A DNA stretch of 64,000 nt. Source: Gluconobacter wancherniae NBRC 103581 (GTDB lineage: Bacteria > Pseudomonadota > Alphaproteobacteria > Acetobacterales > Acetobacteraceae). The stretch covers positions 992,001 to 1,056,000 of the forward strand of contig NZ_BJUZ01000001.1 of the NCBI RefSeq assembly GCF_007988885.1. The letters run 5' to 3'. Position 1 is the stretch's first letter. Each line of letters begins with the position of its first letter. Below the pieces are notes generated by a model. It did no database searches. It worked only from the letters and a program-made list of their open reading frames with translations, and was not told where the DNA came from. Shown piece after piece: positions 20,874 through 37,528 of the stretch. The translations under genes and the position numbers were made by a program.

Positions 20874-21055
20874 GCTGGGGGGCCGTCATATCGCCACGCG
20901 GCGTATTCCTTTGCCCGTTGCTCAGCATCGGGTCCATGGAACGTGGCGCTTTCAATATCTTCGCCCCGTATCTGTTCGACTAGCCAATGATGGGTCTGCG
21001 CGATGCAGTGACGGATAATATGCCGTTCTTCAGTGTTTTTCATAACTTTTTCCAT
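20870..21055 (-). CDS. small hypothetical protein, candidate leaderless gene
   Basis: 61 residues, rich in His and acidic residues (ERHIIRHCIAQTHHWLVEQI). The ATG at 21055 lies 8 bases beyond a good -10 box (TAGAAT) of the promoter at 21063-21092, so the mRNA would start at or near the start codon. The next in-frame ATG is at 21043. Function unknown. Confidence 0.5.
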   Translation of the reverse strand: MEKVMKNTEERHIIRHCIAQTHHWLVEQIRGEDIESATFHGPDAEQRAKEYAAWRYDGPPA

Positions 21056-21062
21056 ACTCCCG

Positions 21063-21092
21063 ATTCTAGTTTTGTTCCGCGCGTCAGTACAA
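21063..21092 (-). promoter_or_regulatory. promoter with GCTTGTACTGA -35 element (small gene)
   Basis: On the minus strand TTGTAC (21087-21092) and TAGAAT (21063-21068) are 18 bases apart. The 11-base context GCTTGTACTGA (21084-21094) is the same as at the portal and terminase promoters. The start codon at 21055 follows the -10 by 7-8 bases. Confidence 0.6.
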
Positions 21093-21138
21093 GCAAAAAA
21101 CGTTGCTCAAACCGCAGCAAACTGAGATAATTTCTGCC

Positions 21139-21411
21139 ATGATCCTCCTCTATCTCGTCGTGGCTGCGGCCTGGTGCTTCTTCTGGGTGAAGGGGAGGCT
21201 TTGGGCGGCGCTTCCGGTGCCGGCCTTCTTTGCAGTGATGGTGCTTTCTTCACTCAATGAGCCGGGACCAATCACCAATCAGCCAGAATACGATTACACA
21301 CTGGCCCTTGTGTTGATTGGCCTATCATTCGCCCCTTACGCCATCCGCCGATACCGCGCGGAGAAAGTGGACCGGCTTCTGAATGGTGTCCGGTTCAATT
21401 ACCGCGACTGA
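21139..21411 (+). CDS. small membrane protein (90 aa)
   Basis: Three hydrophobic segments (ILLYLVVAAAWCFFWV, LWAALPVPAFFAVMVLSSL, LALVLIGLSFAPYAI) and a basic C-terminal tail. It is read against the flanking phage genes and overlaps the 3' end of the transglycosylase gene by 13 bases. I used the ATG at 21139; an in-frame TTG lies at 21103. It could be another lysogen-expressed cargo gene. No family recognised. Confidence 0.5.
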   Translation: MILLYLVVAAAWCFFWVKGRLWAALPVPAFFAVMVLSSLNEPGPITNQPEYDYTLALVLIGLSFAPYAIRRYRAEKVDRLLNGVRFNYRD

Positions 21412-23768
21412 CCCAGCAGGTGATTGATAACAGCCTGGTCCGTCTGCTCCATCTTGGTCAGGCGTCGATTAGCAAGGGCATGCCCGATCAGCGCATTGCC
21501 CGCATGAAGCGCCGCGCCAGTGACACCGCCCGTCATCAAGCCGCCCTCCTGCGCTCCAAGTAGGCCGCCGAGAGTGCTGGCCACGCCACCGAAATGGCCG
21601 CCCCGGATTTCCTTCTGACGCTGCTGCATCGCGTTCTTGAACGTATTCGACCCGTTGGACCGGGCGGCATCGCGCATTGTCCGTTCTGCCATCATGTCGC
21701 GGTAGACAGTTCGAAGGCGCGCTTCCTGCTCTGGTGTGACTGCATCTGTCCCCTTGGTGGGGACCGAAACCTCATTCTTGTCGATCTGCTTGATCAGGTT
21801 TTTCAGCGCCGTGTAATTCACGCTCTCGCCTGTCGGGGCGTTCGTGGACGGCTGGGTCAGGCCTCGCGACTGGAGAAAGCGCAGGCTGTCGATATTGCCG
21901 GATCGACGCGAATATCCCCCGAGGTAATCGTGAAATCCGGGAGCGCCCTGGTCGATGTGGTTGGCGAGATCATCCATGAATGGCGTAAGACGGGCGCTGG
22001 CTGCACGCATATAGCCGTTCTCACTGGCTGCTGCCTGCTTCAGGCCATATCCGATGGCCTTGCGGACGTTCCAGAGGTTTGAGGGAAGCGCCGTTCCATC
22101 TTCGTCCGTGACGTCTGCGATCGCATCCTTCGCCTTCTGGATCGCCTGTTTGACAGAGGCGTTCCCGCAATTGGCCTCAATGTGCTGATCTAGAGTGTGG
22201 TGAAGTTCTTCCGTTGAAATAGGCTGCTCATTCTCGAACGCATTGGTCCGCTGCGCCTCTTCGAACGCGGAGCGCTCTGCCTCAAGATTGTAGATCTGTT
22301 CCGGCGTGCCAATCGTCTCCCGCAGGTGCTGCGTGTAGGCGTGGTCATTCGCACTATCGAGCGTGCGGAAGGCATCCGGATAGAGATCCCGCAGGTTGTT
22401 CTCAAGTCCGGCCATCTTCGGGTCCTGCGTCCGGACAGCGGTCGTATGGAAAACGCCTGGTGTCTGGGCTTCATACAGGCGCGTTCCATCTTTACTGGTA
22501 AATGCCTTCACGATCGACTGAGCGGCCTTCTCCGGATCACTAAACGCACCGACTTTCGAGATGGCCTTGATCTGGGCTTTCTCTTTGGCCTTCTGGGCAG
22601 ACGTACTGATCGGGGCCGGTCCAGCCGGCGCCCGCACCTCTGGCGCTGCCTCCGAAGCGTCCCGCGTGGTCGCGCCTTCTGGGTCCAGATAATCGACGGC
22701 GCGTCGCATGCCTGCCGAAAGCCGGTCGGTTACTGGTGACAGGACTTTCCCGCCGAGCTTCCCGGCCGCGCCAAGGCCCAGAGCGAGTGCTGCGGCATCC
22801 TTGACATCCCCACCTGCCAAGCCGGTCTGCGTTCCTGCCGCCAGCGCGTTGTTGGCCCAACGGGTCGCGCCCGGCCCTTCACCGGTCAGGACGTTGGCCG
22901 CAATGCGACCGGCCCGCGACCCATCAAGCGCCGCAGCTGCAGGACGAACAATCCGACCGCCCAGACCGGTTGCCAGTCCGGCGCCGAGCATCGTTCCCGC
23001 TGCGTCAGTATAGAGCGCGCCATAGTCATCCTTACGCGATGCCTCGTCTGCATCTTCTTTCGAGGCGACCCAATCACCGGCCTTCTGAGCAGCCTCGGAA
23101 ACTGGATTGTCTACGTGATGTCCGAGAGAGGTAGCCCAGCTCACAAGGTGAGGGACGCCAACACCGAACGTCCGGTCGATTTCCCGGCCTGCCGAGTTCA
23201 CTGTGTCATTGACGAGGGTCCAGGCCTTTTCGGCGCGAGAAAGTGCCGGTTTTTTTGGTGCCGTGCTTTCGCCGTCCTCATGCCCGAACATGGCGTCGAA
23301 GGAATTCCCTGAACTCGGCTTGTCCGGTGCGGGAGAGCTGTCCCCAAGGCTGCCCTCGAACGTTGAGGCAAAGGCGTCCGGGGCATCTGGCGCGTTCTGC
23401 TGCTTCTGGGGTGGCTGATAGCTAGCCGCGACCTTGCCGGGATATGCCATGGTTTCGGAGTTTCCCCATTTGGTGCGGTCAGTCCCGCCATTGTAGGCCC
23501 GGAGCGCGTCCGGGAGATTGCCGTATCGCTTCAGGTTCTCGTCCAGTAACCGGGCCGCGCCATAGATCGACTGGACTGGATCGGTCGGGTCGATGCCGAG
23601 GCTGCGGGCCGTTTCCGGCATGAACTGCATGTGGCCTATGGCGCCAGCCCGCGACCGGGCCTTCGGATCGTTCTTCGGATCTTCCACCTGATGCACGGCA
23701 CGAAGGACGTTCGGGTCTACGTTCCAGTATTTCCCGGCATCCTCATAGGTCTGATCAACGCTCGCCAC
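21399..23768 (-). CDS. virion lytic transglycosylase / ejection protein
   Basis: 789 residues. The N-terminal SLT domain (residues about 10-115) shows RAVHQVEDPKNDPKARSRAG, AIGHMQFMPETARSLGIDP and LRAYNGGTDRTKW, the Glu and GxMQ patterns of Slt-type transglycosylases. A long Ala/Gly-rich helical remainder follows, with possible membrane-active parts around residues 270-330. Such proteins are ejected with the DNA and cut peptidoglycan for genome entry. It starts with GTG, overlapping the upstream ejection-gene stop by 14 bases. Confidence 0.8.
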   Translation of the reverse strand: MASVDQTYEDAGKYWNVDPNVLRAVHQVEDPKNDPKARSRAGAIGHMQFMPETARSLGIDPTDPVQSIYGAARLLDENLKRYGNLPDALRAYNGGTDRTKWGNSETMAYPGKVAASYQPPQKQQNAPDAPDAFASTFEGSLGDSSPAPDKPSSGNSFDAMFGHEDGESTAPKKPALSRAEKAWTLVNDTVNSAGREIDRTFGVGVPHLVSWATSLGHHVDNPVSEAAQKAGDWVASKEDADEASRKDDYGALYTDAAGTMLGAGLATGLGGRIVRPAAAALDGSRAGRIAANVLTGEGPGATRWANNALAAGTQTGLAGGDVKDAAALALGLGAAGKLGGKVLSPVTDRLSAGMRRAVDYLDPEGATTRDASEAAPEVRAPAGPAPISTSAQKAKEKAQIKAISKVGAFSDPEKAAQSIVKAFTSKDGTRLYEAQTPGVFHTTAVRTQDPKMAGLENNLRDLYPDAFRTLDSANDHAYTQHLRETIGTPEQIYNLEAERSAFEEAQRTNAFENEQPISTEELHHTLDQHIEANCGNASVKQAIQKAKDAIADVTDEDGTALPSNLWNVRKAIGYGLKQAAASENGYMRAASARLTPFMDDLANHIDQGAPGFHDYLGGYSRRSGNIDSLRFLQSRGLTQPSTNAPTGESVNYTALKNLIKQIDKNEVSVPTKGTDAVTPEQEARLRTVYRDMMAERTMRDAARSNGSNTFKNAMQQRQKEIRGGHFGGVASTLGGLLGAQEGGLMTGGVTGAALHAGNALIGHALANRRLTKMEQTDQAVINHLLGQSR

Positions 23769-25218
23769 TTGGCACCAGCCCGGCAGCAGCCATCGCGTTG
23801 TAGTTCTTCTTGAATTCTTCGATCTGGCCTGACTTCTTCATGCCCTGAAAGACCGTCTTGCGCTCGTCTGGCGTCATCCGAAGAAGCTGATAGGCGCGCG
23901 GGTCGAAGCTCTGGCTGAACTGCTGGTTCCACTGCTGGAACTGCGCAGGCTGCAATCCGGCCTTCTGCCAGGCCTGTGCCTTTGCATTGATGGCGTCCTC
24001 ATTACCCATGAGCTGATGGATCATCAGGCGGTTCGTGGAACCCTGAAGCGCGCTGTTCGGGCTCGCATGCACGGCGGCCGCAAGTTTGCTGTCAGTGCCA
24101 GTCCCGAGGGCCTGGCACTGCGCATTGGCGAGGTTCTGAGCCCACTTGTTGAAGGACTGGGCGCTTTCGATTTCGCTGCTTTTCCAATTGCCTCCCGTCC
24201 AATTGTCGAAGACCGAGGCAAAATGTCGGATGCGCTCACTGCCGGGGCCGGACGTGAACCCTTCCAGATCGGAAGACATATTGCCGAGTGCTGCCATCCG
24301 GTCATTGCGGTTTGCAGAGGCTTGCATCAGAGCGTTCGCCCCCTGCGCTCCAGCTTGTGCCGTTTCGGTCAGAGCTGCTGTTTGTCATGCTGCGGGAGCC
24401 GACTGATATCCCGGATTGGCGGGCTGCTGCGTCGGATAGCGGCCTGAGCCCATCGCCTCGGGCGGAACGGTCGGCTTTGCGCCACCAACCACCTGATCGC
24501 GCCTGACATAGCTACGGGAACCGTCTGGGTTGATGACCTCCATCGGGGTAGAATTGGTATCCGGGGAGGTCTGCTGCTGAACCGTGGTTGTCGGCTGAAA
24601 CTGCCCGCCATTCATAGCGCTCTGCTGCGTTCCAATGATGGTCTGCTGCCCGTTATTTACGGTCGCGCCCGGTGTGCCATACACGTTGGCTTCCTGCTGG
24701 CCCGGAGCCTGCATGGAGTTCGTCAGTTGCGCTACTCCGCCCGCAATGCCGTCAGGATGCTGCGCAATCTGATTAACGATCGCGTCAACGGGCTGGCCGG
24801 GGAAAATCGCTTTCGCCATGCGCTTCGCTGCAAAGAGGTGCGCCTGATCCGGGTTCGATCCCACGTAGGACAGAATGGCCCCGACGGCGTTTTTCCCAGC
24901 TTGCGTGTTGGCAAGATCATCCGCACGCGCCGCGTTCTGTTCGCGCACGGCCTGCGCTGCCCCATAGGCAGCTTTCGGATCACGAGCCATTGTTGCGCGC
25001 GCTTTGGCGTAGTCAGTGCGTCCGGTATCGTCGGTGGCGCCAAGCAAAGCGTTGCCACCGGCCATCCGGGCATCATACTCAGCTTGCTGGATCTTATTTC
25101 CCAACAGCGCATTTCGGATGTTTAGTGCTTGTGCGAGGTGATCCGATGGATTTGTTGGCCGAATAGTATTTTGGCCAATACCGAGCAACGCATTGGCGCC
25201 TGTATCAAACCCCGCCAT
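23755..25218 (-). pseudogene. ejection (internal virion) protein gene split by an in-frame TGA
   Basis: The frame opening at 25218 runs 277 codons to TGA at 24385-24387. It then continues in the same frame without another stop to 23755, giving 488 codons in all. The joining residues are GYQSAPAA-stop-QTAALTETAQAGAQ, with the same composition (Gln/Ala/Gly-rich) on both sides, so this looks like one gene with one nonsense change. It lies between two other ejection-type genes, where P22-like phages keep DNA-injection proteins. The part after the stop has an internal ATG at 24327, from which a C-terminal half could be made. Confidence 0.7.
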
Positions 25219-25958
25219 TAGCTTGCGCCTCCGTTGAGGAGGTTTTTGTAGGTCAGATAGTTACTGCCATAGCTGGACGCCTGATTTCCCAAATTGGTCA
25301 ATCCGTTGGTCAGGCTATTCGCCATAGAAGCAGTACCTGCCATATTTGCACCCACGCCCGCGAGCGCCGCCTGAGCGGAAAGGCTGGCGGTGTTCGTGGC
25401 GTTGTTGGCGCTGGCCGAAGCGGCGTTTGATCCGTAACCAAGTAGTGCATTCTGGCGGTTGAACGTGTTGGTTAGGTTGCTCTGAGCAGCACTATTCGCA
25501 GAGAGCTGGTCATTGAACTGGTTCTGATAAGTGCTGTCAGCCAAACCAGAGGCATAGGTGGACGCGCCCTTAAGCGCTGCGCCACTGTTCGCCAGTCCAC
25601 GCGCCGCCGCGCTATTCGTCGCGGCCTGCTCTCCCTGTGACAGGTTCCACTCATAGCCGGGCGTCTGCTCAAGCGTCGTCTGGTTCAGTGCGTTGGTCGC
25701 ATTGTTGATATAGCTGTCATCGGTCGAGTTGTACGCATTGTTGTCGTACATGCTGCCGATCAGCTTATTACCGACCGATACGTAAGGATTCAGATAGTCC
25801 TGAGCGGCAGTTCCTGATGCAGAAATGGCCTGCGCTTGGCCTGCCCCAGTCTTGGCGGCCTTGTCCATGGCGCTCTTTTCGAGCGCCATCTGAGCCGCAG
25901 TCGTCGCCGCGGTCGTAGCAGCCTGTGTAGCTTGTCCAACGCCAAACGTATCGCTCAC
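25218..25958 (-). CDS. putative DNA ejection protein
   Basis: 246 residues, almost entirely Ala, Ser, Asn, Gln, Thr and Gly, predicted helical with low complexity (FGVGQATQAATTAATTAAQM; ANNATNTASLSAQAALAGVG). This is typical of P22-type injected virion proteins and the family annotated as phage DNA-transfer proteins. It overlaps both neighbours by 1-4 bases, so it is part of a tightly packed operon. Confidence 0.6.
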   Translation of the reverse strand: MSDTFGVGQATQAATTAATTAAQMALEKSAMDKAAKTGAGQAQAISASGTAAQDYLNPYVSVGNKLIGSMYDNNAYNSTDDSYINNATNALNQTTLEQTPGYEWNLSQGEQAATNSAAARGLANSGAALKGASTYASGLADSTYQNQFNDQLSANSAAQSNLTNTFNRQNALLGYGSNAASASANNATNTASLSAQAALAGVGANMAGTASMANSLTNGLTNLGNQASSYGSNYLTYKNLLNGGAS

Positions 25959-26362
25959 TTTGGACGCTCCATTTTGTAGGTGACGTGATGACGCACAATC
26001 CCATCAGGGCAGGGCGCGTCGATTTCGCCCCAACGGACAAAGCCGAGGGCATGCATTGTGAATCGGGCAGACTTCTTGTCGTCTGGAATGGCGGCGATCA
26101 TCAGGTCAGACGGCTGTGTCGTCCACCACCAGTCCCGGATTTGGCGCATTGCCGCGATGGCTTGTTTGCCGCGCATTTCGGGAATGACAGCCTGATGGCA
26201 TTCATGCACACGCTCCCGAACGGCGCGGAAACCGACAACAATACCTGGCACATCCACGATCTGGGCCTCTTCGCCATAGACACCCGGATGTGTGATGACG
26301 GCATTGATGGCGTTGATGTCGTTGACGGCCGCCCCAGAGATTGATGGTGCTGCGAAAATCAC
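25955..26362 (-). CDS. GNAT-like phage protein (possibly head-assembly type)
   Basis: 135 residues. The pattern VPGIVVGFRAVRERVHECHQ, GKQAIAAMRQIRDWWWTT and FTMHALGFVRWGEI is like a small acetyltransferase fold. P22-like phages have such a GNAT-like protein (gp14 type) in the same place near the ejection genes. Enzymatic activity is doubtful. It overlaps the flanking genes by four bases each. Confidence 0.5.
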   Translation of the reverse strand: MIFAAPSISGAAVNDINAINAVITHPGVYGEEAQIVDVPGIVVGFRAVRERVHECHQAVIPEMRGKQAIAAMRQIRDWWWTTQPSDLMIAAIPDDKKSARFTMHALGFVRWGEIDAPCPDGIVRHHVTYKMERPK

Positions 26363-26673
26363 GACAGCATGTATCCATCAACGATCAGGTTCAGGCCATT
26401 GCCGGACGCAATGATCACATCCCCAGCAGTGAGAACTCGTCCAAGCTCAGGGGCCAGATCTGTTCCACCGGCCGCGATTGCGTGGGCAGGGATGATTTCA
26501 AATGCAGTCCCGCCAGCGCGCTGAATTGAGACGGTTAGAGCAACGGCAGCATTTGTCGGATTGGCGATCACCGCGCCACTGACAACAGTCGTGCCAGCGC
26601 CAGCAGTGTAAACGGAAGAGCTGTCACCAGTGAGTGTGATGCCTTTTACGAGGGATTGTGCGACGACGGCCAA
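26359..26673 (-). CDS. small virion-region protein (104 aa)
   Basis: Predicted all-beta (LTGDSSSVYTAGAGTTVVSG; LTVSIQRAGGTAFEIIPAHA), like small phage decoration or fibre-associated proteins. Its start lies 28 bases inside the upstream gene. No family assignment is possible. Confidence 0.5.
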   Translation of the reverse strand: MAVVAQSLVKGITLTGDSSSVYTAGAGTTVVSGAVIANPTNAAVALTVSIQRAGGTAFEIIPAHAIAAGGTDLAPELGRVLTAGDVIIASGNGLNLIVDGYMLS

Positions 26674-27131
26674 GGGCGGTTCATGACTGAAAACGTCATG
26701 CTCTCATTTCGAGATTGTGCCGCCTGTGCCTCACAGCTCGCCGTGGTGAGAAGTATAGTCAATTCCTGCGCCGTTTCCAAGGTTTTTAACGCTCGCTGTT
26801 CGCACGCACGAGCTTGCAGCAAGGCTATGTTTGCCGCCTCAAGAGCTGCCCGTGCTATAGTAAGAGCGCAACGGTTTTCCGAAGCCCCATCCAGAAGAGC
26901 AATCAGTACCTCGGAGTCAGCGGCATTGGCTGTCATCTGGGCATCTTCGGCAGTTTTCCGAACATCGGCAATGCTGTCCGCGACATCCGATATCGAAACC
27001 CCAGGAGCATATCCAGTCCGGTTCATGAGGGCACGAATAACTGCGCTGGCAAGCGGGGTAAGATTGCCCGTGGCATCGCACCAGCGACCCGAAAAATATG
27101 GTGCGTTCAGGGCATTGCCGGGAACGCTCAT
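26646..27131 (-). CDS. phage hypothetical protein (161 aa)
   Basis: Starts MSVPGNALNAPYFSGRWCDA, with a structured N terminus of about 40 residues. A long helical, Ala/Glu-rich remainder follows (ADVRKTAEDAQMTANAADSE; LEAANIALLQARACEQRALK) that should form a coiled coil. This is the layout of a tail-tip or fibre-adaptor protein. I chose the ATG at 27131; the longer frame to 27194 overlaps nothing useful and lacks family-like sequence. Confidence 0.5.
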   Translation of the reverse strand: MSVPGNALNAPYFSGRWCDATGNLTPLASAVIRALMNRTGYAPGVSISDVADSIADVRKTAEDAQMTANAADSEVLIALLDGASENRCALTIARAALEAANIALLQARACEQRALKTLETAQELTILLTTASCEAQAAQSRNESMTFSVMNRPWPSSHNPS

Positions 27132-27202
27132 GACTGCACCGCATCGATATCGATAAATGCCCCCATGAGCGCCGTGGCGCCGGGATCCGTCCATGTCAGG
27201 CG

Positions 27203-28582
27203 CTAGACTCGGTCGCGGGCCATTCCAAGCCGCCAGAGAGTAGGCCAGAAGTTGCCCGTTTCTCCTAAGGCGAGCGGGCGTATCGCGCCAAAAGTGGCGC
27301 CCCGGTCATCAGACCAGTCCACATTGATGGTCACCCTTGAGGACTGCTGCATATCCAGCATGAATCTACGATGGATGCCGCGCGTTCCAGCCGTTAGCAG
27401 GTGAGGGAAAGCGCGCTGGCGCTTGATCGGCGTCCCTGCGTCATCCAGAGCGTTCATCGTCACCTGATAGATGGCGCCATTCTCACGGTCACACGCCCAT
27501 GTCTTGCCATAAGCCTGCGTCCAGAACAGCGGACGCACCTGAGCTTCATTGCCAACAGCATCCAAAGCGCATCGCTCATGCCAGAGTTCAGTAGACACGT
27601 CGAACACCCAGGATGAAGATTGCCCCGGAACCGTCAGGACGTAGAAGACATGCCCGTCCTGCTGGTACACTGAGGCAACGGAAGCGGAGAGATCGCCCAT
27701 GGCCTGCAGCGCCCCATCCACCGGGAATGTGGATACAGGCACCGCAGATGTCTGCTGGCCAAGATAGACACGAGCCAACCCGCTCCGGTCCTGGCCAAGC
27801 CACATTATGGCACCATTCGGAGTGTTCGCGGTCGTGGGGATGCGAGCGATTGTGTAGGGCGCGATGCAGCCCGCTTCAACAGTTACGCCTTGAACGCGCT
27901 GGAATGGAAAATCAGAGGCGCCACTGTCATACCAGAACTCAACCTGCCATCTGCTGAACAGCCAGATGTACTGGCCAATGACCTCAATGCCGATGATCGT
28001 GGCGAGACTGGTTTCGTCGCTTGCAACATAGAGGCTGTCGAATGGCATCGTGGCTTCGTCAGAGAATTGCGCCGGCGACGTGTACCAGTTGGTCGTATCT
28101 GGGTTCACGAAAAGAAAAAAAGTATCGAGGATCGCAATCGTGGGACTGCCATAGAAAGCGTCATCAACGATTTGGGTGAGTGCCCCGAAGGAGCCTTGGC
28201 CAGCCTTTGACGGCATGGAACAATACCATCCGGCCGCCGCTGTCCCATCCACAATGAATAGCGTGGTCCCATTATCCGCCATACGGACCGGGCCATTGCC
28301 AGTGTTGATCTCTCCTATCTTCGTAACTGCCCCCTCGCTGTTCAAGCGGAGTACAGCGTTCCCCATGACAAAGATCGCATCACCCTGTGTAGTCTGATAT
28401 GCGCATCGCCCTTTGCCACCGGGCTGCGAAGCTGTGCGCAATCCCGGAGTGGGGTAATAAGCGAACTGTATCGGTTCACCTTCTTCCTGAGGTATCGGCT
28501 CAGGGTACAGGTTCAGGACGCGTTGAGCGGCAACAGAAGCACACCTGGCATCATATGAGCCTCCCGAGAGATTAACGCGCAT
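27203..28582 (-). CDS. packaged-DNA stabilisation protein (P22 gp10-like)
   Basis: 459 residues, mainly beta strands. The start GGSYDARCASVAAQRVLNLY followed by FAYYPTPGLRTASQPGGKGR is characteristic of the gp10 family, which plugs the portal after packaging as part of the tail hub. Later parts (TTLFIVDGTAAAGWYCS; GSWVFD-like repeats) fit its beta architecture. AAGGA lies 8 bases before the ATG at 28582. It follows the tailspike gene on the same transcript. Confidence 0.75.
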   Translation of the reverse strand: MRVNLSGGSYDARCASVAAQRVLNLYPEPIPQEEGEPIQFAYYPTPGLRTASQPGGKGRCAYQTTQGDAIFVMGNAVLRLNSEGAVTKIGEINTGNGPVRMADNGTTLFIVDGTAAAGWYCSMPSKAGQGSFGALTQIVDDAFYGSPTIAILDTFFLFVNPDTTNWYTSPAQFSDEATMPFDSLYVASDETSLATIIGIEVIGQYIWLFSRWQVEFWYDSGASDFPFQRVQGVTVEAGCIAPYTIARIPTTANTPNGAIMWLGQDRSGLARVYLGQQTSAVPVSTFPVDGALQAMGDLSASVASVYQQDGHVFYVLTVPGQSSSWVFDVSTELWHERCALDAVGNEAQVRPLFWTQAYGKTWACDRENGAIYQVTMNALDDAGTPIKRQRAFPHLLTAGTRGIHRRFMLDMQQSSRVTINVDWSDDRGATFGAIRPLALGETGNFWPTLWRLGMARDRV

Positions 28583-28593
28583 GGGTGAAATCC

Positions 28594-30291
28594 TTATGAC
28601 GGCGCATTATTGCCGCCAGACAGGTTTAGATGCGCCGACGTATTGCCGGTTGCGATTGAATAAAGCTGCCCGCATCCACGCCCGTTGCTCCCGCTGAGCG
28701 TCACCCAATCTGTTTTCGTATCAAGACGCAGCCCGGTCATAGCGTTGGGATTCCCGGCCGTATCTCCGGCTCCCACTGTACAGAATGACATATTGGAAAT
28801 CTGTGCGCCGTTACCGTCCAGAGAGCTATTGCCAGGATTGAGAAGCTGGATTGCATCTGCGCTGTCTGCTGCCGTCAATCCACATCCAGCAATGGTGCCC
28901 CCGACATAAGTCAGATCACTGATGTAGCTGACTATGCAAGCCTGATTGGCTCCTTGCATCTTTCCACCGAAGAACTTGACCATGCCGCTTTGAAAGCGTG
29001 TCTGGTTGAGCACGACCAGGTTGTTTGTCGGTACTGATCCATAAAACTGTGGACTGACGAATTCCAACTCGGAGAAATTGTCAGCATCCAGCGCGCCAGG
29101 TGGAACTCCGTTCTGGTTGGTTGCGTTACTTTCGACCTCGACCCGGTTCCCATAGATAAATCCGGGACATGTACCGATCGTCGAGGAGTTCGGGCAGTTG
29201 ATCTTAACGCCGGTGCTAACCTGCTCAAGCACAACGCCATCCATCCAGACAGTTGCCATGAAGTCATGGATATAGACCCCGATGGCGGGCGGCGTGTTGA
29301 TGCTTGAATTGAGAGACGCTGTGACATCAGTATTTATGATTTTAAAAACATCGGATCGAGTTGCGCAGTTCTGTAGCGCGCTGGTGCTCCCCGTGCATCC
29401 TGTGTCTGATCCATATGTCTCCAGCCCAATGCCACCCAGAAGCATCTGGTGAAACTGAGAGTTATAAACAGAATTGCTATTGCCAGCGTAATTCTGAACC
29501 CCCTGGAAGACAAAAAACGTCCGCACATCATGCGCACTGCATCCACGGCAATGCGCAAATCGGAAGGCGACTCCAGTCTGCTTGCCGTTATTCGCGCCAT
29601 AGACTGACAGGTGATCAATTTCGCCACCGTAGAAATACATCCCGCTATCGGTCGGGGCGGCATTAAAATTGAAAACTGCGGCAGAGCCCGCGCCGGTGAG
29701 ATAGAACTTTGTGCCTTCCACGCCAGCGCCATAAAGGTGCAGACCCGGACATGCCATCGACACGCTGTTTGTGGCTGAAATCGCATATGATCCAGCGGGG
29801 ACAAAAATGCTTCCCCCGCCGTTGGCGCACACAGATGTTACTGCAAGCTGAAGCGCAGGGATGTTGTCCGTTCCCGATCCGGACGCGGAATTGTAATCAC
29901 TGACCGCCCCGAAATCTTTGGCAGATACAGTGTCCTCAAGGCGCAGCAAAAGCGTCCGCTCGACAGACTGTGCCCATCCGGGGCTGTACTGGATCAAAGA
30001 CGAGACGACGCATGCCGCTGCGTTCTGGCAGGTGAACGAAGTAGTGGAGAGGCTGACCCCGGTTAAATCCGCATTGGATACAGAGCCCCCATTTATGGAT
30101 GCTCCGGAGATATTTGGTGTGGTAAGTGTCGCATTCGATAGCTTGCCATTGCTTACATCCGCCTTTGTGGAAAGCGCCCAGTTCAGCCCGGTTGGACCAC
30201 TGAGTGTGACACGCCGATCCATCTGAGGGATGGATTGCGCCCACGACATAACGGGCAACATGAACGCAAGGGCGAGGATGAGGCGCTTCAT
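28594..30291 (-). CDS. tailspike-like protein (beta-helix) with signal sequence
   Basis: 565 residues. The ATG at 30291 overlaps the gp4-like stop (ATGA). The first 20 residues (MKRLILALAFMLPVMSWAQS) look like a signal peptide. A linker with repeated short strands (NATLTTPNISGASINGGSVS) follows, then a pectate-lyase-like beta-helix domain from about residue 125 (VSAKDFGAVSDYNSASGSG, GGGSIFVPAGSYAISATNSV). KDFGAV-GT-NI-A-Q is the standard entry motif of phage tailspike depolymerases, which bind or cut surface polysaccharide. The catalytic residues cannot be identified. Confidence 0.72.
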   Translation of the reverse strand: MKRLILALAFMLPVMSWAQSIPQMDRRVTLSGPTGLNWALSTKADVSNGKLSNATLTTPNISGASINGGSVSNADLTGVSLSTTSFTCQNAAACVVSSLIQYSPGWAQSVERTLLLRLEDTVSAKDFGAVSDYNSASGSGTDNIPALQLAVTSVCANGGGSIFVPAGSYAISATNSVSMACPGLHLYGAGVEGTKFYLTGAGSAAVFNFNAAPTDSGMYFYGGEIDHLSVYGANNGKQTGVAFRFAHCRGCSAHDVRTFFVFQGVQNYAGNSNSVYNSQFHQMLLGGIGLETYGSDTGCTGSTSALQNCATRSDVFKIINTDVTASLNSSINTPPAIGVYIHDFMATVWMDGVVLEQVSTGVKINCPNSSTIGTCPGFIYGNRVEVESNATNQNGVPPGALDADNFSELEFVSPQFYGSVPTNNLVVLNQTRFQSGMVKFFGGKMQGANQACIVSYISDLTYVGGTIAGCGLTAADSADAIQLLNPGNSSLDGNGAQISNMSFCTVGAGDTAGNPNAMTGLRLDTKTDWVTLSGSNGRGCGQLYSIATGNTSAHLNLSGGNNAPS

Positions 30292-31142
30292 AGCTTCTGG
30301 ATCTCCAGACCCGGCCAATAGAACGGGTTGCTGATGGGAGTAAGGATGGCGGGCATGGCAAGGGTAGGTGCGCGGAAACTGACTGTACGGATTGTAGACA
30401 AGGACGCACGTGCAAACGTCGCCACGGTTGCTGAGACTTCCTGTCCATAGGACGGGGCAAGACGAGCGGCCAGACACCACATCACAGCATCCCAATATTC
30501 CGGGGGCAGGTTCAGAGGTGTATCCGCCTTAAGATTGCCCTGAAGGGGCTGAGCTATGAGCAGATGTAACTGCCACGTGTTACCGCCTGCTGGGATCGGC
30601 CATGGCCTGAACTCACCCAGAGGGAAGGCGGGATTGTAAAAGTAGAAGCTGGGCCATGTCTTCAGTCCCTTGAGGCCAAGAGCGGCATAGTCCTGATAGG
30701 AGGGAATTTCAGCCAGGTGATAATCAATGGGATTGGCGGAAGAAAGCCCGTCATCATTATCGACGAAATCACTTGGATCGAAATCGTTCGCAGAGAAATC
30801 TCCCTCGACCGCTGCCCCTCCGTTGAACAGAAGCCGGGCATAGGCCCCCATTACCTGAGCAGGACGCACAGAAATGTCGATATCTCCACCGGGACCGACA
30901 TAGTAGACCGACTTCCCAGTCGCCATACAGAATACATCGGTGAGATTCGGAACGAGCCATTCACGGCGCTGCCACTGGGCCAGCATCATGTTCAGATGCA
31001 TGACGCCCGAGGCCAAGCCTTGCGGATCTGTATTCTGACCACCGACACCGACGCCAAGCTGCTCGAGCGCCAAGCCGACGAGATCGGAGACAAGGTACCC
31101 TGTCGTGACGTTTGGAGTGCCGCCGTTATTGGTTTCGGACAT
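30288..31142 (-). CDS. P22 gp4-like tail accessory / head-completion protein
   Basis: 284 residues. GYLVSDLVGLALEQLGV with MLAQWQRREWLVPNL near the N terminus and GGNTWQLHLLIAQPL near the C terminus resemble the gp4-type head-completion proteins that bind under the portal. It lies between the coat and tail genes, where P22 has gene 4. The C terminus ends with YWPGLEIQKL. The assignment rests on moderate similarity and position. Confidence 0.6.
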   Translation of the reverse strand: MSETNNGGTPNVTTGYLVSDLVGLALEQLGVGVGGQNTDPQGLASGVMHLNMMLAQWQRREWLVPNLTDVFCMATGKSVYYVGPGGDIDISVRPAQVMGAYARLLFNGGAAVEGDFSANDFDPSDFVDNDDGLSSANPIDYHLAEIPSYQDYAALGLKGLKTWPSFYFYNPAFPLGEFRPWPIPAGGNTWQLHLLIAQPLQGNLKADTPLNLPPEYWDAVMWCLAARLAPSYGQEVSATVATFARASLSTIRTVSFRAPTLAMPAILTPISNPFYWPGLEIQKL

Positions 31143-31317
31143 TTGGGGTGCGCCCCTTGCGCCTCATAACAGGCTTGAGCGGCGTGTCCCGGCCCGAAGG
31201 CTCAGGACGGCCAGACATACGGGCTCGCACCCGCTCTTCTTCTACCTCATCCCGAACGGTTACGGTTTCGTAGCCATTCGGGTGGTGCAGCGTTTTGGGA
31301 TACCCCTTCACCAGCAT
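31126..31317 (-). CDS. small head-region protein (63 aa)
   Basis: Starts with the ATG that overlaps the coat stop (TGATG) and encodes MLVKGYPKTLHHPNGYETVT followed by a charged stretch. The overlaps on both sides and the conserved-looking N terminus support expression. Role unknown; it could be a small head-tail component. Confidence 0.6.
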   Translation of the reverse strand: MLVKGYPKTLHHPNGYETVTVRDEVEEERVRARMSGRPEPSGRDTPLKPVMRRKGRTPNVRNQ

Positions 31318-32609
31318 CAGCCAGCGTCAACGATATCCGGCACGATGCAGAGCCATTCAGGGCGAAGTACACCGATGCCGAACAACACGTCGAGACGCGT
31401 GCCAAGCGTATCGTCAGTGCCGTTGTAGTAGGTGAGGGTACGCATGGAGATGCCGTCGAGGTTCGCCATGCCGCAATCTACAACGCCTTTGTTGACCTCC
31501 ATCAGATCGACAGTGACGAGGGTCATGGCCTTCTTGTTGAACAGAAGGTTGCGGCGGATCGTCTCGCCCTGCTTGCCCACAAGAGTGATCTTGGCATCAG
31601 CAACGGGCAGCGCATCGACGGTCTGATACTGGTTCTGCGATCCATCAGCAGCAGGGCCGACAAGGGCAGGCGAGACCACGATGGACGTGGCGCCGCTCGC
31701 AACAGCCTGCGTGACCACGAACTGCATCGGTGTGCCGTAGGACCGCTTGGTCACGCGATTGACCTGATTGACGCCTGCGATGGTGATGACATCACCTGCG
31801 TTAATGCCACCATTCAGGGCAGACGTGGCAATGACCGAGTTCTGCGGGTACGCCGTGGAACTAATCTGGCCCGGAATCGCATTGCCCGCATTGCTGAGCG
31901 TCGTGACTGATCCGGTCGCCGTGGCAGCGCTATCGTAAGAGCCGGTCGTGGTAACGAGACAGGTCTGGTCGTTGATCCACTCGCGGACACCAAGGAGAGG
32001 TGCTTCCATCGCGCCCGTCTTGGTCTGCTGACCGATCTGTGCGGAGGGATTGAACAGCCCCATGAGACCGGAAACTGTGCTGGCATCCGTATCCGGATCG
32101 AGAACAGCGAAACGGTCAGCCGTCGGGGCGTGCTGCTTCGTCAACTTGGCCTTGGCCTGAAGCCATGTCTCGGATGTTGGGGCGATCGTATTGCCGTTGC
32201 CATCCACGTTGCGCACCATGTTCGCGGCACCAAGAGCAAGCGTCATGGCGATATCGGCAACAGAACCGGTCAGGTTGTTGACGGATGGCTCGATGTAACG
32301 ACCGCTGAAGTCATCAACATTCAGGGTACGTTCCTGCGTATCGAAGCCAAGAGAGACGTGCTTGCGATAAGCCACCGTCAGAGGGACGGAGCGCTCTGCA
32401 ATGGACTGCGGGCTGACAACCGGGCCGTCACCAACAACCGGGTCGTTTGGCAGGCGAACATTCACGGAAGCGCCGATCTTAGCGCCGGACTTACCAAAGT
32501 AGCTGTCATAAGAACGGTCGATGTTCTTGATGAAGCCGTTAGTGTCACGAAACAGCGGCAGCGCGCGCTTCGTGATGATCATGTCGTTAATCAGATTATT
32601 CGTAGCCAC
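31317..32609 (-). CDS. major capsid (coat) protein, P22 type
   Basis: 430 residues, the size of P22 gp5 (430). The start NNLINDMIITKRALPLFRDT, then YDSYFGKSGAKIGASVNVRL, and the immunoglobulin-like insertion region (GDVITIAGVNQVNRVTKRSY) match P22-type coat proteins. The scaffold and portal genes are directly upstream. It starts with GTG; 140 bases separate it from the scaffold gene. Confidence 0.8.
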   Translation of the reverse strand: MATNNLINDMIITKRALPLFRDTNGFIKNIDRSYDSYFGKSGAKIGASVNVRLPNDPVVGDGPVVSPQSIAERSVPLTVAYRKHVSLGFDTQERTLNVDDFSGRYIEPSVNNLTGSVADIAMTLALGAANMVRNVDGNGNTIAPTSETWLQAKAKLTKQHAPTADRFAVLDPDTDASTVSGLMGLFNPSAQIGQQTKTGAMEAPLLGVREWINDQTCLVTTTGSYDSAATATGSVTTLSNAGNAIPGQISSTAYPQNSVIATSALNGGINAGDVITIAGVNQVNRVTKRSYGTPMQFVVTQAVASGATSIVVSPALVGPAADGSQNQYQTVDALPVADAKITLVGKQGETIRRNLLFNKKAMTLVTVDLMEVNKGVVDCGMANLDGISMRTLTYYNGTDDTLGTRLDVLFGIGVLRPEWLCIVPDIVDAG

Positions 32610-32748
32610 GGGTTCGGCTCACAATACATGGCGCCACTGCGCCTATCGTGCCGCTCTCGCCAAAGGCAGAACGTGTGCCGGTTAGGGAACCGAAAACAGC
32701 CGGGTTAAAGCCCCCGTGGCTTATGCGGAGAGACTGCTCCGCGACAGG

Positions 32749-33561
32749 TTACGACCGAACGCCAGCCTTCCAGAGGCGGTCAAATTCAACAGCGGAAACA
32801 TTTGGGTCGTAGATCGACTTCTTTCCCGCAGGTGCCGCACCGGATGGAGCCGAGACGGGAGGCGGGGCCTTCGAAACTGCTGGCGCTGCGGGCGTTTCTG
32901 CCTGCGCTGCCGGAGCTTTCTGACCTACCTTCGCCGCGAACTGTGTCAGAAGCGCATACTGGCGACGCGGTGAGGCGTCGAGGATGTCGCTTGCTGCATC
33001 CGGGTCGTGAGCGAGAGCATAATACACGTCGCCACTGTTCGGCAACTCCGATATGTCGGAGATCAACTCACGGTGTGACTTGTTAGAGAAATCCAGTCCT
33101 GCACGCTCGGACAGGAGCTGCGTGGCCTGACTGACCGCTGCATCCCCATGAGTACCAGCAACAGCTTTGGCGATAGCTTCGGTCTGGGATGAGAACTTCT
33201 GGATCGACTGCTGCTCTGCCTGCTGGCTCTCAATCCGCTGACGCTCCTGCTGCCGGATCTGGTCTGGCGTCAGGCTCTCTTCCTGCTGCTCTTCACCACG
33301 AGAAGCAGCCAGCGCGCGGCGCATGTTCTCCAGCTCTTCCTGATTGGCCTGCTCCCGCCGCTCAGCTTCACGACGCTCAAACGTCAGCTTATCGATCTTA
33401 CGCTGAAGCCATGCGGGCGTCTTCTCGGGCTGCGGGGCCGGATCAGGTTGTGCCTGGCCCTCTGGTGCACCCTCGGTCTGCGTCTCGATTGCTGGCGTGT
33501 TCGCAGCGTCTGGCGTTGTCAGCGCGCCGTCGAGGATAGGGGTTTCGAGTGTCTCGCTCAT
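32749..33561 (-). CDS. capsid scaffolding protein
   Basis: 270 residues. It has a Pro/Gln/Glu-rich disordered N terminus, a long charged helix (WLQRKIDKLTFERREAERRE, then QANQEELENMRRALAASRGE) and a basic-hydrophobic C-terminal end (SAVEFDRLWKAGVRS) suited to contact the coat protein. It lies between portal and coat genes, the invariant place of scaffold genes, and its ATG overlaps the portal stop (ATGA). Confidence 0.8.
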   Translation of the reverse strand: MSETLETPILDGALTTPDAANTPAIETQTEGAPEGQAQPDPAPQPEKTPAWLQRKIDKLTFERREAERREQANQEELENMRRALAASRGEEQQEESLTPDQIRQQERQRIESQQAEQQSIQKFSSQTEAIAKAVAGTHGDAAVSQATQLLSERAGLDFSNKSHRELISDISELPNSGDVYYALAHDPDAASDILDASPRRQYALLTQFAAKVGQKAPAAQAETPAAPAVSKAPPPVSAPSGAAPAGKKSIYDPNVSAVEFDRLWKAGVRS

Positions 33562-35753
33562 GCCTCAACGGCTCCTGTCACTGGATTGGCAGCATGAATT
33601 TTGCCGCCTGGGGGATTAGAAGAAGGAAGACGCGGAAGTGGTCCGGGCGGGCCATCCTGCATGGCAGGCGTTGCCCCACTTGAGGGAGGGGACCCATTCC
33701 GCAGCGCCTCGGAAACAAGCTGGTGGACCAGCACACGAAATGCCTCTGGATCGGTCGAGCCAATCGCAGCCATGCGGTCGGTTTCGGCCTTGTACTGGTT
33801 CGTGTCCGCAGCCATCGCGTCTTTGACGACGGTGTGCTGCTGCTCGGCCTGCTTATCCTTGAGCTGCTGCATAGCCTGCTGAAGCTGCGCCTGTAGCTGC
33901 TGGATCGTCTGTTGAGCCTGTTCGAGGCGAGGATCATCGGACGCGGGCTTGAGCCGATCGGCAATCTCGTCAGCAAGCGGGAAGTCCGCGCTCTGAAATA
34001 CGAGATCTCCGATCTGCCCCATGAGATTAGGGGCGGCCTGAATAACCTGCGTCAGCGCGTTGAACGCATCCTGTTTCCGCGTCGCAAAAGCAGGGCCCAC
34101 ATCAGCCTCAACATCGAAGCGGCCAATCGTCGGGTTGATCGCGAGAATTGCGCCATCGATCTGGCGCTGTTTCTCAAGCGAGATCCCTTGCGGTGGCTGC
34201 TGCGGCTGCCCATCGGGACCAGGAGGAAAAGCCACCTGTGCCGACGTCTGCATGTTCGGATCAACGACAACACCCGTCTGTGTGCCATCCATCCCAAGCG
34301 ACTGCACGGCGCGTTGCGTATCGTACACGCGGGGAATGGCATCAATCAGCAAGCGCCCGAGATAACGAAGCGCCATGCCCTGATTGTCAGTGTAGTGATA
34401 GTTCGCCGTGTCTGACTGGCGCTGACGCTGCTGGATCGCAACACCGGACTTCTCGTTACCGGGCGCGCCCATCTCAGCCTGATATTGGCCGGTGACCATC
34501 TGCATCCACTGATCGGCGGACTGCATGCCCTGCATGTGGCCAGTCGAGCCGGATGGCGGCTCAATACGGGTTGGGATCGGAATTGGCTGCCCATCATCGC
34601 TAATGGCATTGTAAGGCAGCACAGCAGCATTGCTGGTGTTGGCCTGCGACCACTCGTTCGTATAGCCCTCGATCGCCTCAGCTGAGGCGAGCCAGGGCGC
34701 TTTAGTTTGGAGGGCAACGCTCTCGACATAAGCGCTGGCCGTGTAGTTAAACATGCGCTGCGGATCGATTAGAGCCCGCACAAGCCCCGCATAATCCGCG
34801 TCGTTGCCGTCAGTCGCACGCGTCTCAATGCCAACCATTGGGATCAGCGGAATAAGCGAGAACACGGTCTCGCCCTGAGCCACAACAGTATTACCCGCGA
34901 TGACGTACTTATCGACCATGTGCGATGTGATCGGCCGCGACGAGGCTTTCATCGTGCGAAAGACCTCAACCATCTCGGGAGGCATTTCACTCTGACGCAT
35001 CGACCCCGTAGGCGTGGCCCAAAGCGTGTCTTTCTTTTCGCTGCGGCGATAATACGTCGCCACGCGAACCGTGCTGTCGCTCACCCAGTCACTGTCTGAT
35101 TGCAGACCTTAAATCGGGTCACGTGATACGTCTGCGTGACCCGGATAGAGCTTGTCGAACTCGACCCGGTCCATTTCCTCAACGATCATTGCCCAGTTCT
35201 GATCCGAATGATCGGGCTCACGGGCCGCTGGATCGAAATAGACAGAGAGGCCATTTGGAACGGACTTGATGAAGAAGTCCTGATCGAACGTGTCCACACC
35301 TGGAACATAATCCGTCACGACATGGAACCAGCCCAGACCGGTGCGAACCTGCCCCTGAATGGCACAGGCATAGGCGTTCTGCTGAGCGTTCGACTGATAC
35401 TCGATATGGCGGATAATGCCTTCAATGGCATCCGCAGCCTCAGCCATGGAACCAAAGCCAGTCGCATTGACCTTTACGCCCATTTGCGACTGCCGCGCCT
35501 CGTTCTCCACCTGGAAGACGTGCTGCGCAGTTTTGTTGATCGTCAGGCAAGGGCGAGGGGAGCCGCCGAACGTTCCGGCACGTGCCTGATAGACCGCATC
35601 ATCCCATTGCGCATGATTGTACGCGTCAGCATGGAAAAACTGCAGATCATCGCGTGCGCGACCGCGCCACTGGCTCGTATGGCCAGACGCTTCTTCATAG
35701 CGTTTCTGGACCTCGGAGATGATATCGGCTGTGTCGGAAGCACTCTCGCTCAT
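33558..35753 (-). pseudogene. P22-type portal protein gene split by an in-frame TAA
   Basis: From the ATG at 35753 the frame runs to TAA at 35109-35111, then continues in the same frame to 33558. Without the stop the product is about 731 residues, the size of P22 portal (725). The first part holds SGHTSQWRGRARDDLQFFHA and SPRPCLTINKTAQHVFQVEN, the usual start of P22-type portals. The second holds MFNYTASAYVESVALQTKAP, the VMDEI-like central part and a Gln-rich coiled C-terminal barrel region. The interrupted junction reads VSRDPI-stop-GLQSDSDW. A full-length portal cannot be made unless the stop is read through. Confidence 0.85.
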
Positions 35754-35761
35754 GAGGTATT

Positions 35762-35791
35762 TAAATACCACACTGAAACTTGTCAGTACAA
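35762..35791 (-). promoter_or_regulatory. promoter with GCTTGTACTGA -35 element (portal gene)
   Basis: On the minus strand TTGTAC (35786-35791) and TATTTA (35762-35767) are 18 bases apart. The portal ATG at 35753 comes 9 bases after the -10 box and has no Shine-Dalgarno sequence, so the message may be leaderless or nearly so. Confidence 0.55.
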
Positions 35792-35814
35792 GCGAAAACG
35801 ACAATCAGGACCGA

Positions 35815-37092
35815 TTACAAACCCATCCACCCAGAGGTTGAGCCTGTTAGCGAAACGCGAGGGCGTTTGGCGCTCTCAGCCTTCGACTTCGGATCATTAA
35901 TCGCTACTGCCAGCATCCGGAAAGCATCCGCACCATGTGAGGCATCATCGTGCAGCGGCTTCTTGCTGAACTGTCCCGTCTGCTGGTCCACATCGTAGCG
36001 ATACCGTCGCAGCGCGTTCATGCCGTCCGCCGTCGCCTGCTCATCAAACCACACCCGAGGAAACAGGGTACGAGCCGCACTGATCCCCGCCACAATGGGT
36101 AACTGAGGCAGGACCGAGATTGGCATCGACCGTGCCCGCAACTGTGCAGCAATCGTTTTGCCGCCCGCTGATAACTGGCCCTGATTGGCATCATGCGGAA
36201 GGAAATGGCGCTCGTACCGATAGCCGCGCCGCTCCAGAAGGCCAACGTAATGATCAAGGCCCTCCATGCGGTTCTGATAAAAATCGATCACACGGATATC
36301 GAAGCCGATCTTCTGCCAGAACCAGATGCTGGTCATGTCTGACCAACCCAGATCCCAAGCCGTAAACACAGGCGCAGACGGATCATATTCCACATGGCAG
36401 ATGCGCTGCTCGTCTGTGGCCTGCCGTATCTCGTTCGCGTAGATCGCGCCCTCAAGAACCTGCTTTGGGTTGCCCTGCCAGACGTTCAGCCACGCGTCGT
36501 AATCCGTGGCTTTGAGTTGCTCCATTTCCTCGCGCAGGACAACAGGAAAGAACGGGTTCTGATCCCAGTTCACCTTTCGAACAATCGCATTGCGCGGCGG
36601 CCTCAAAACGAACCGACGATAGACCTCATCCTCAGCAAGCTCCGGATTAAAGCCAAGCCAGATCTCCGACCCTTCCTTACGGATCGTCGGAATGAGCACG
36701 TCGAGACTGCCCTTGGTGATCGTCTGCGCCTCTTCGATCCAGCAGCGGTCTATGCCTTCAATCGATTTGATCGACGCAATGTTGTGCCGCAGACCCGCAA
36801 AGATGAACTCGGTCCCGTTGCGACCAAGGATCGTCGTGTTTTGGACCGTGTAGAAACTGGCCAGAGCAGGGTTTCGCGCAATATGGTCTGCCAGAAGTGA
36901 GTGAACAGAGTCAGAAATGGACTTCTGAAATTCACGCGCGCACAAAACGCGGATCGGCTTCTCGGCGCCCTGTATCAGCAGAGCAAGCGCCATTCCCCAG
37001 GACTTGCCCGATCCTCGTCCACCATACGCAACCTTGTAGCGTGCAGGCTCAAACAAGAAGGCGAGGCTCTCAGGAAACTGAACCTCACTCAC
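35815..37092 (-). CDS. terL: terminase large subunit
   Basis: 425 residues. The ATPase half has Walker A (YGGRGSGKSWGMALA, about residue 25), Walker B with catalytic acids (DRCWIEEAQTI, about residue 120) and GFNPELAEDEVYRRF. The C-terminal nuclease half has FTAWDLGWSDMTSIWFW (first metal Asp) and DDASHGADAFRMLA (last acids). The set is typical of PBSX-type large terminases, which cut and pump the genome into proheads. The gene looks intact. Its start overlaps the small-subunit stop by 8 bases. Confidence 0.92.
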   Translation of the reverse strand: MSEVQFPESLAFLFEPARYKVAYGGRGSGKSWGMALALLIQGAEKPIRVLCAREFQKSISDSVHSLLADHIARNPALASFYTVQNTTILGRNGTEFIFAGLRHNIASIKSIEGIDRCWIEEAQTITKGSLDVLIPTIRKEGSEIWLGFNPELAEDEVYRRFVLRPPRNAIVRKVNWDQNPFFPVVLREEMEQLKATDYDAWLNVWQGNPKQVLEGAIYANEIRQATDEQRICHVEYDPSAPVFTAWDLGWSDMTSIWFWQKIGFDIRVIDFYQNRMEGLDHYVGLLERRGYRYERHFLPHDANQGQLSAGGKTIAAQLRARSMPISVLPQLPIVAGISAARTLFPRVWFDEQATADGMNALRRYRYDVDQQTGQFSKKPLHDDASHGADAFRMLAVAINDPKSKAESAKRPRVSLTGSTSGWMGL

Positions 37093-37411
37093 TCGGACGA
37101 ACCACGGTCACGACAAGGCCGAGCGGGGCGCCATCCTGTCCGCTGATCTCCACAGTCTCTTTGGCTTTACCCCATGCACGATCGAGCAGTGCATTCGCTG
37201 CGGAAACGCGAGCGCTTTCAGGAGAGACCGGACTGCCAGCAATTTCCGCAAGGGCTGTAATAGCTGTGACCGTGTGCGAGCGGGCGAGGGCTATGACTTC
37301 TCGAATATCTTTTGGAAGGCCTGAAGGATTGCCGCTTTGGCCTTTCTGAAACGGCCGACCAACCGGCATTTTCTTCCGCTGCTTACCGCTGTTGGCAGGG
37401 GGTTCTTTCAT
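37085..37411 (-). CDS. terS: terminase small subunit-like protein
   Basis: 108 residues. A basic N terminus with GRPFQKGQSGNPSGLPK (the DUF5681-like element often seen at the start of small terminases) is followed by a helical region (EVIALARSHTVTAITALAEI). It lies immediately upstream of terL on the same strand, overlapping by 8 bases. The ATG at 37411 lies 7 bases beyond a -10 box and has no ribosome binding site; an alternative ATG further in (MPVGRPF) is preceded by GGAAG. Confidence 0.7.
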   Translation of the reverse strand: MKEPPANSGKQRKKMPVGRPFQKGQSGNPSGLPKDIREVIALARSHTVTAITALAEIAGSPVSPESARVSAANALLDRAWGKAKETVEISGQDGAPLGLVVTVVRPSE

Positions 37412-37417
37412 AGGCCC

Positions 37418-37446
37418 AACCTATCATCAGACCCCGATCAGTACAA
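37418..37446 (-). promoter_or_regulatory. promoter with GCTTGTACTGA -35 element (terminase operon)
   Basis: TTGTAC (37441-37446) and TAGGTT (37418-37423) are 17 bases apart on the minus strand. This is the third copy of the GCTTGTACTGA context. The terS ATG at 37411 is 7 bases from the -10 box, matching the expected transcription start. Confidence 0.55.
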
Positions 37447-37528
37447 GCGGAAACCGGTAACATGATACCTCAAAACTCCCTTCGCCAGCCGTACCGGTGT
37501 TGGAGAATTATCCTCCGCTCAAGCAACG

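Follow-up and report, generated by a model that had tools for sequence, protein, structure and literature searches.

A prophage of Gluconobacter wancherniae NBRC 103581 raises the question of why one short sequence should stand directly ahead of three of its reading frames, and whether it belongs to a promoter or is the target of a regulator. The window analyzed here, a stretch of 64,000 nucleotides (contig NZ_BJUZ01000001.1, positions 992,001 to 1,056,000), carries a prophage related to phage phiAX1 of Acetobacter, to which a 5 kb query is 90% identical over 63% of its length. The 11-base box GCTTGTACTGA is present in it in three exact copies, all on the minus strand (37438-37448, 35783-35793, and 21084-21094), which precede the terminase small subunit gene (terS), the portal gene, and an open reading frame (ORF) of 61 codons, respectively. 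A preliminary description had reported these copies at just these places, and dinucleotide shuffles of the window contain on average 0.02 of them, with none of 100 shuffles giving three. We propose that the boxes very probably belong to promoters of the sigma-70 type, most of them with an extended -10, in a temperate phage family of acetic acid bacteria, and that these promoters by their sequence and position would give leaderless mRNAs of terS, of portal, and of a variable third gene, termed here the cargo gene. The name terS is given solely by position, directly upstream of the terminase large subunit gene (terL), and the gene has a Pfam match to DUF5681, while the portal gene matches phrog_156. 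The features concerned are as follows.

37456..37469, minus strand: palindrome GGTATCATGTTACC (GGTA-N6-TACC), 9 bp upstream of the terS -35; a candidate regulator site on the basis of relatives
37441..37446, minus strand: -35-like hexamer TTGTAC of the terS promoter, from its sequence and its equal spacing in relatives
37418..37426, minus strand: extended -10 (TGA-TAGGTT) of the terS promoter, 6 nt before the ATG
37085..37411, minus strand: terS, beginning at the promoter-borne ATG; the phiAX1 homologue is annotated from the same ATG
35786..35791, minus strand: -35-like hexamer TTGTAC of the portal promoter, from its sequence and relatives
35762..35770, minus strand: extended -10 (TGG-TATTTA) of the portal promoter, 8 nt before the ATG
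35756..35769, minus strand: palindrome GGTATTTAAATACC (GGTA-N6-TACC), lying over the portal -10 with its centre at -9.5
35109..35753, minus strand: first part of the portal gene, beginning at the promoter-borne ATG and ending at an in-frame stop, codon 215
21087..21092, minus strand: -35-like hexamer TTGTAC of the cargo promoter, from its sequence and relatives
21063..21068, minus strand: -10 (TAGAAT) of the cargo promoter, 7 nt before the ATG and without TGN
20870..21055, minus strand: 61-codon ORF behind the cargo promoter, without convincing relatives

The three sites of the window share one layout, TTGTAC-N17-TAGGTT-N6-ATG at terS (ATG at 37411), TTGTAC-N18-TATTTA-N8-ATG at portal (ATG at 35753), and TTGTAC-N18-TAGAAT-N7-ATG at the cargo ORF (ATG at 21055), and thus agree with the earlier proposal of a TTGTAC -35, a -10 at a distance of 17-18 bases, and a start codon close behind it (spacers of 17, 18, and 18, and 6, 8, and 7 nt from -10 to ATG). 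At terS and portal a TGN triplet (TGA and TGG) directly precedes the -10 hexamer; the cargo promoter has none. Only the exact box stands out within the window, as matches with two or fewer mismatches are near chance (17 versus 12.8 expected), and the near matches were therefore not used.

This geometry is maintained well beyond the window. A set of 41 sites, taken without the duplicate loci L048, L049, L051, L052, and L054 and without the portal site of genome G314 (which also fits), comprises 39 distinct sites. In every one of these the -10 ends 6, 7, or 8 nt before the ATG (16, 7, and 16 sites), which is the distance that a leaderless mRNA gene calls for and is in part a product of selection, as the scorer permitted 4-9 nt. 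The -35/-10 spacer is 17-19 in 38 sites and 20 in one. A TGN stands before the -10 in 34 of the 39, compared to 14% in shuffles, and is missing at all three cargo promoters; most of the sites have what defines a sigma-70 extended -10 promoter, a TGN together with a -35 located 16-19 nt upstream. Position -1 is a pyrimidine in 38 of the sites, and 34 have no purine 5 nt or more beyond the -10 until the A of the ATG itself. When 63 of the 65 listed coding sequences of phiAX1 are ranked by a score for fit to this layout, the portal start comes first and the terS start third (tied with the second).

Portal relatives were collected from 10 bacterial-genome loci (7 named genera) and 26 viral-contig loci which, with the window and phiAX1, make 38, or 36 assessable loci once L065 and L068, which have no upstream sequence, are set aside. 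A portal-type promoter stands before the first ATG of the portal transcript at 28 of the 36, including all 10 loci in bacterial genomes; four of the 28 sites (L037, L041, L049, and L064, where L049 is a copy of L037) do not fit the strict pattern and were assigned by inspection and with the scorer. The portal sites form two clades, one with TTGTAC-N18-TGG-TA and the other mostly with CTGTAC-N19, in which five of nine sites read TGC-TATAA. The terS starts were inspected at 26 loci, of which 14 have a promoter of the same layout and 12 do not, and the 15 terS sites collected, the window included, were picked for showing that layout. In phiAX1 the box before portal is exact and the -10 differs by one base, while its terS promoter keeps the geometry with different letters (TTGAGG-N17-TAAATT-N6-ATG). 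Searched in 16 whole phage records, the pattern TGTAC-N16-19-TA-N9-12-ATG has 29 matches versus five for the reversed control, and 28 of the 29 are on the late strand. By our own tally, 15 matches lie at portal or at a gene inserted before portal, eight at terS, two at cargo genes, and four elsewhere. The exact terS pattern was found in eight stretches of viral contigs and, among 397 genomes of the bacterial family, only in the window's own genome; the cargo pattern gave only two matches in the viral contigs. Both sites of locus L045 of Gluconobacter roseus are identical, letter for letter, in genome G425 of the same genus. The same layout was also seen at further starts, namely a phrog_16492 gene (L174:1598-2218), a 30-codon ORF with a similar N-terminus (L040 6117-6243), and an 85-codon ORF (L064:5671-5928).

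If these promoters give leaderless mRNAs, the starts behind them would be read without a Shine-Dalgarno sequence. With a strong Shine-Dalgarno defined as a duplex energy of -6 or lower in the region -20 to -4, there are none at the 39 promoter-borne starts compared to 33 at the 61 other coding sequences of phiAX1. The relatives whose terS has no promoter serve as natural controls, as most of them carry a strong Shine-Dalgarno instead. At 10 of these 12 loci there is an in-frame start with a pairing of -7.0 to -11.3, a generous figure because each in-frame start ahead of the conserved core was scored and the best one taken; nine (L037, L038, L039, L043, L044, L050, L051, L060, and L064, where L051 is a copy of L039) pair at -9.3 to -11.3 and L069 at -7.0. 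The promoterless portals of L062 and L063 pair at -6.0. Starts that adjoin the promoter thus have no strong Shine-Dalgarno, while those without the promoter usually have one. The preliminary description had seen no convincing Shine-Dalgarno at any of the three window starts, and this stands for the -20 to -4 region and needs amending for the 61-codon ORF, which has GGGAG 1 nt from its ATG (duplex of -6.6 kcal/mol over the last 22 nt). This is too near for a normal Shine-Dalgarno but it is not nothing.

The homology between related loci also breaks at the start codon. Loci in which one promoter leads into different genes are 80-95% identical in the 60 nt before the ATG and 17-35% identical in the 60 nt after it, as measured in nine pairs that share members. 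The genes exchanged in these pairs are three cargo ORFs (those of the window, L096, and L097), two types of terS, and genes inserted before portal. At L046, L056, and L059 a small extra ORF ahead of portal starts at the promoter's ATG, and at L056 and L059 its stop overlaps the ATG of portal. Unrelated genes therefore appear, as judged from these alignments, to have been swapped in exactly at the promoter's ATG. At L096 (G309) the promoter-borne ATG opens an ORF of five codons whose stop overlaps the ATG of a longer ORF, an arrangement that resembles a short leader peptide with coupled translation.

Two of the three genes in the window call for comment. Read from its ATG at 35753, the portal gene is interrupted by an in-frame stop, codon 215 (35109-35111, minus strand), where phiAX1 is intact and many relatives have open portal frames of more than 700 codons, so that the window prophage may be defective or the assembly may be in error at this point. 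The protein of the 61-codon ORF has no match in phage records and, by a search for close relatives, none in the viral contigs; among 299 family genomes it was found in its own genome and as three weak partial matches only, and it belongs to no PHROG (E 0.001) and no Pfam family (E 0.01). We do not claim this ORF as a gene, and it is the weakest of the three cases, yet its promoter is kept in two other prophages.

Is TTGTAC then a -35 element? Across the 39 sites the box reads TTGTAC in 23 and CTGTAC in 10, with one each of TTGTAG, GTGTAC, TTGTAA, TTGTGC, TTGTGA, and TTGAGG, and these letters drift at a nearly constant spacing. From this variation, TTGTAC most likely acts as a degenerate -35. 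The 2.78 Mb genome has five copies of GCTTGTACTGA, and not the many random copies that would have told against the proposal; the two outside the window lie inside ORFs of 311 and 364 codons. The former reads like that of the GTPase Era. A general host promoter was considered and rejected, as the host genome has 17 matches to TGTAC-N16-19-TA-N9-12-ATG versus 32 for the reversed control. With TTGAC in place of TGTAC the counts are 17 versus 28, and a narrower pattern summed by us over 21 genomes, with the known phage sites included, gives 58 versus 50. With no excess of the pattern in the host genome, the exact form looks like a phage trait.

A second conserved element accompanies the promoters. 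The palindrome GGTA-N6-TACC occurs 28 times in the 639 kb of sequence that was fetched (39 sequences, duplicates included), compared to one to four times for each of the other spacings (N3-5 and N7-9). Of the 28, 26 fall at promoters of terS or portal, and by our assignment so do 21 of the 23 copies in 18 whole records, in which the backwards pattern occurs seven times. The element is thus shared by several late promoters, and it is probably the target of a dimeric regulator. Its centre is near -51 at terS (-51.5 for GGTATCATGTTACC if the A of the terS ATG is +1) and near -9.5 at portal, where it covers the -10. It was not seen at the three cargo promoters or at the terS promoters of phiAX1, L042, and L045. 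Before the portal promoters of L037, L046, and L057 there is a different palindrome, AGGAA(T)...(A)TTCCT, some 44-59 nt before the first ATG. We infer from its place near -51 that it would suit a dimer bound upstream, as if another regulator used the same position. A third copy of GGTA-N6-TACC in the window (37794-37807) lies 12 nt upstream of a 103-codon ORF without family matches. In phiAX1 (L006) there are, at about 37815-37890, three TACCA-N3-TGGTA palindromes between divergent genes annotated as Arc-type repressors, and these are perhaps the operators of those genes.

When ORFs were compared in pieces of 19 phage records, with queries from four of them, a small conserved protein of about 69 residues (41632-41919 in the window, plus strand, antisense to early genes; no Pfam match) was present in nine of 11 phages with the GGTA site and in none of five without it. 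We do not propose it as the GGTA-binding protein, as it is missing from G314 and G315, which have the site (G315 was covered only in part).

What the comparison shows, namely a conserved motif at a set distance from the ATG, no strong Shine-Dalgarno, and homology that ends at the start codon, points to the following mechanism. RNA polymerase would begin at the A of the start codon of terS, portal, and the cargo gene, or no more than about two bases from it, and the resulting leaderless mRNAs would be read by the host ribosome without a Shine-Dalgarno. Expression would be late, as judged by the genes served, and a dimeric regulator would act through GGTA-N6-TACC, which lies close upstream of the -35 at terS and covers the -10 at portal. 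The placement for leaderless mRNAs, which the preliminary description had proposed, is accordingly supported by comparison and is not proven.

Several observations weigh against this reading. TTGTAC is a poor match to TTGACA, and the spacer of 19 in most sites of the CTGTAC clade is outside the usual sigma-70 optimum. The portal promoter is missing at eight of the 36 assessable loci (L062, L063, L066, L067, and L069-L072), and at the promoterless terS position the ORFs of L046 and L062, which are not clearly terS, have no strong Shine-Dalgarno. The absence of a Shine-Dalgarno is by itself weak evidence, because 28 of the 61 other phiAX1 coding sequences also lack a strong one, as do terL and the major head protein gene of the window, and the rank-test p of 3e-7 overstates independence because the sites are related. 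The mean fit score (10.5 at the sites versus 6.5 in shuffles) favours TA and TG by design; the lowest score of a real site is equalled or passed by 15.5% of shuffles, and the median score by 0.4%. The patterns required an ATG, so that "all start with ATG" is no result, and to these points must be added the choice of terS sites by their layout and the lack of enrichment in the host of either the TGTAC or the TTGAC form. The cargo promoter has no TGN, GGGAG lies 1 nt from its ATG, and its ORF is without clear relatives. Lastly, a leadered mRNA could also be supplied by read-through from upstream genes.

The last point leads to the first of three rival explanations, that the late genes are served by ordinary leadered mRNAs from upstream promoters and that the sites are auxiliary internal promoters or relics. 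In its favour, the late genes are closely packed, and Shine-Dalgarno-like sequences precede many further starts in the window's minus-strand cluster, where 10 of 24 reach -6 or lower within the last 22 nt, counting the 61-codon ORF. Against it, terS and portal are without one, unlike most promoterless genes at the terS position, and the geometry to the ATG is held while the letters of the spacer drift. We consider it the least probable of the three. An operator for a repressor or bifunctional regulator, in which the -10-like letters at portal are simply the middle of GGTA-N6-TACC, is only slightly less improbable. It would account for a palindrome that is so specific in spacing, so largely confined to terS and portal promoters, and laid over the portal -10. 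Among the nine CTGTAC-type portal sites, however, the palindrome is found only in L057 and yet five read TATAA at the -10, while at terS the palindrome lies upstream and leaves the -10 alone, so that the promoter stands without it.

A more serious rival, if still a doubtful one, is that the box binds a late activator instead of serving as a -35, in which case the promoters would be extended -10 promoters that depend on this activator. The preliminary description had itself allowed that the box, besides holding a -35, may be the target of a late activator. The 9-11 bases that recur (TTGTACTGA) are more than a -35 needs, the CTGTAC form retains TGTAC and loses only the first T, and the TGN of most sites is able to replace a -35. 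On the other hand, the CTGTAC clade does not retain the TGA that follows the box, the terS boxes drift to TTGTAA, TTGTGC, TTGTGA, and TTGAGG with the spacing unchanged, and an activator gene was not found, the small family of about 69 residues being the sole one to co-occur. The box varies as a -35 would, and the likelier regulator site is the separate palindrome; the remark that the box is an activator's target is therefore not supported in that form. We retain the reading of the sites as sigma-70-type promoters placed for leaderless mRNAs.

An extension of that reading, which we offer tentatively as a possibility on the improbable side, is that promoter and ATG together form a docking module for gene exchange, and that the regulator of GGTA-N6-TACC turns terS on and portal down, thereby ordering the head and packaging genes. 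Swaps at the exact codon would be possible in such a module because the mRNA begins at the ATG, and any ORF landing there would be transcribed with the late genes and translated without a Shine-Dalgarno of its own. The analysis raises the questions of why terS and portal should use leaderless translation and whether such promoters help phages to take up genes. It also offers a rule for placing start codons when phages of this family are annotated, and the palindrome gives a defined site from which to seek the late regulator.

How do these promoters compare with known systems? The cI gene of phage lambda has a leaderless mRNA with the start codon at its 5' end, and it is a lysogeny gene with one promoter, whereas here one form of promoter is common to packaging and head genes in a phage family. 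To our knowledge, leaderless phage genes are otherwise isolated cases like lambda cI or occur in jumbo phages, which have polymerases of their own. The family described here is temperate and presumably read by the host polymerase, and it would keep the leaderless layout at core packaging and head genes across several host genera. The late promoters of Mu and P2 depend on the activators C and Ogr, and they resemble the present ones in having a palindromic site common to several late promoters; the difference is that the candidate palindrome is upstream at terS but over the -10 at portal, and that no activator gene was found. Phage morons are variable small genes beside late genes, with their own promoter and terminator, and the cargo ORFs, which are unrelated and follow a conserved promoter, may be likened to them. 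Unlike in morons, it is the phage family that owns the promoter, and the exchange of genes takes place precisely at its ATG.

The late promoters of phiKZ are described, in the portion of the source available to us, as T-3ATG+1, a TATG at the transcription start, and are used by a multisubunit RNA polymerase that the phage encodes (PMC7598289). The likeness is that a conserved late-promoter element overlaps the transcription start and reads ATG. As far as that portion goes, phiKZ has no other conserved element, whereas here the -35 and -10 are kept and the portal sites mostly read CATG, so that TATG is not the only conserved element. That phage transcripts are often leaderless appears as a passing remark in the accessible part of PMC5312081. 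In the parts available of the main texts on phiAX1 (PMC8566455) and on Acetobacter prophages (PMC9379143) the word "leaderless" does not occur, while "promoter" occurs three times in one of them (in two recognized places, in plasmid and integrase contexts) and is absent from the other, and in the open-access literature we found no description of late promoters with leaderless mRNAs for the phages of these bacteria. There is also a precedent on the host side, as in Gluconobacter oxydans 621H, according to the part of the study available, 62 of 1344 mRNAs are leaderless, starting within 3 nt of the start codon, 57 of them with ATG, and the promoter motifs are ttGnnn at -35 and Tatnnn at -10 with a purine preference at +1 (PMC5756330). 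The host mRNAs of that account likewise have mostly ATG starts and host -35 and -10 motifs; they are mapped genes of one strain, whereas the phage sites share one box, are predicted from sequence, and follow a pattern not enriched in the host. Leaderless mRNAs themselves are thus known, Gluconobacter included, and what looks new is a conserved family of phage promoters with leaderless geometry.

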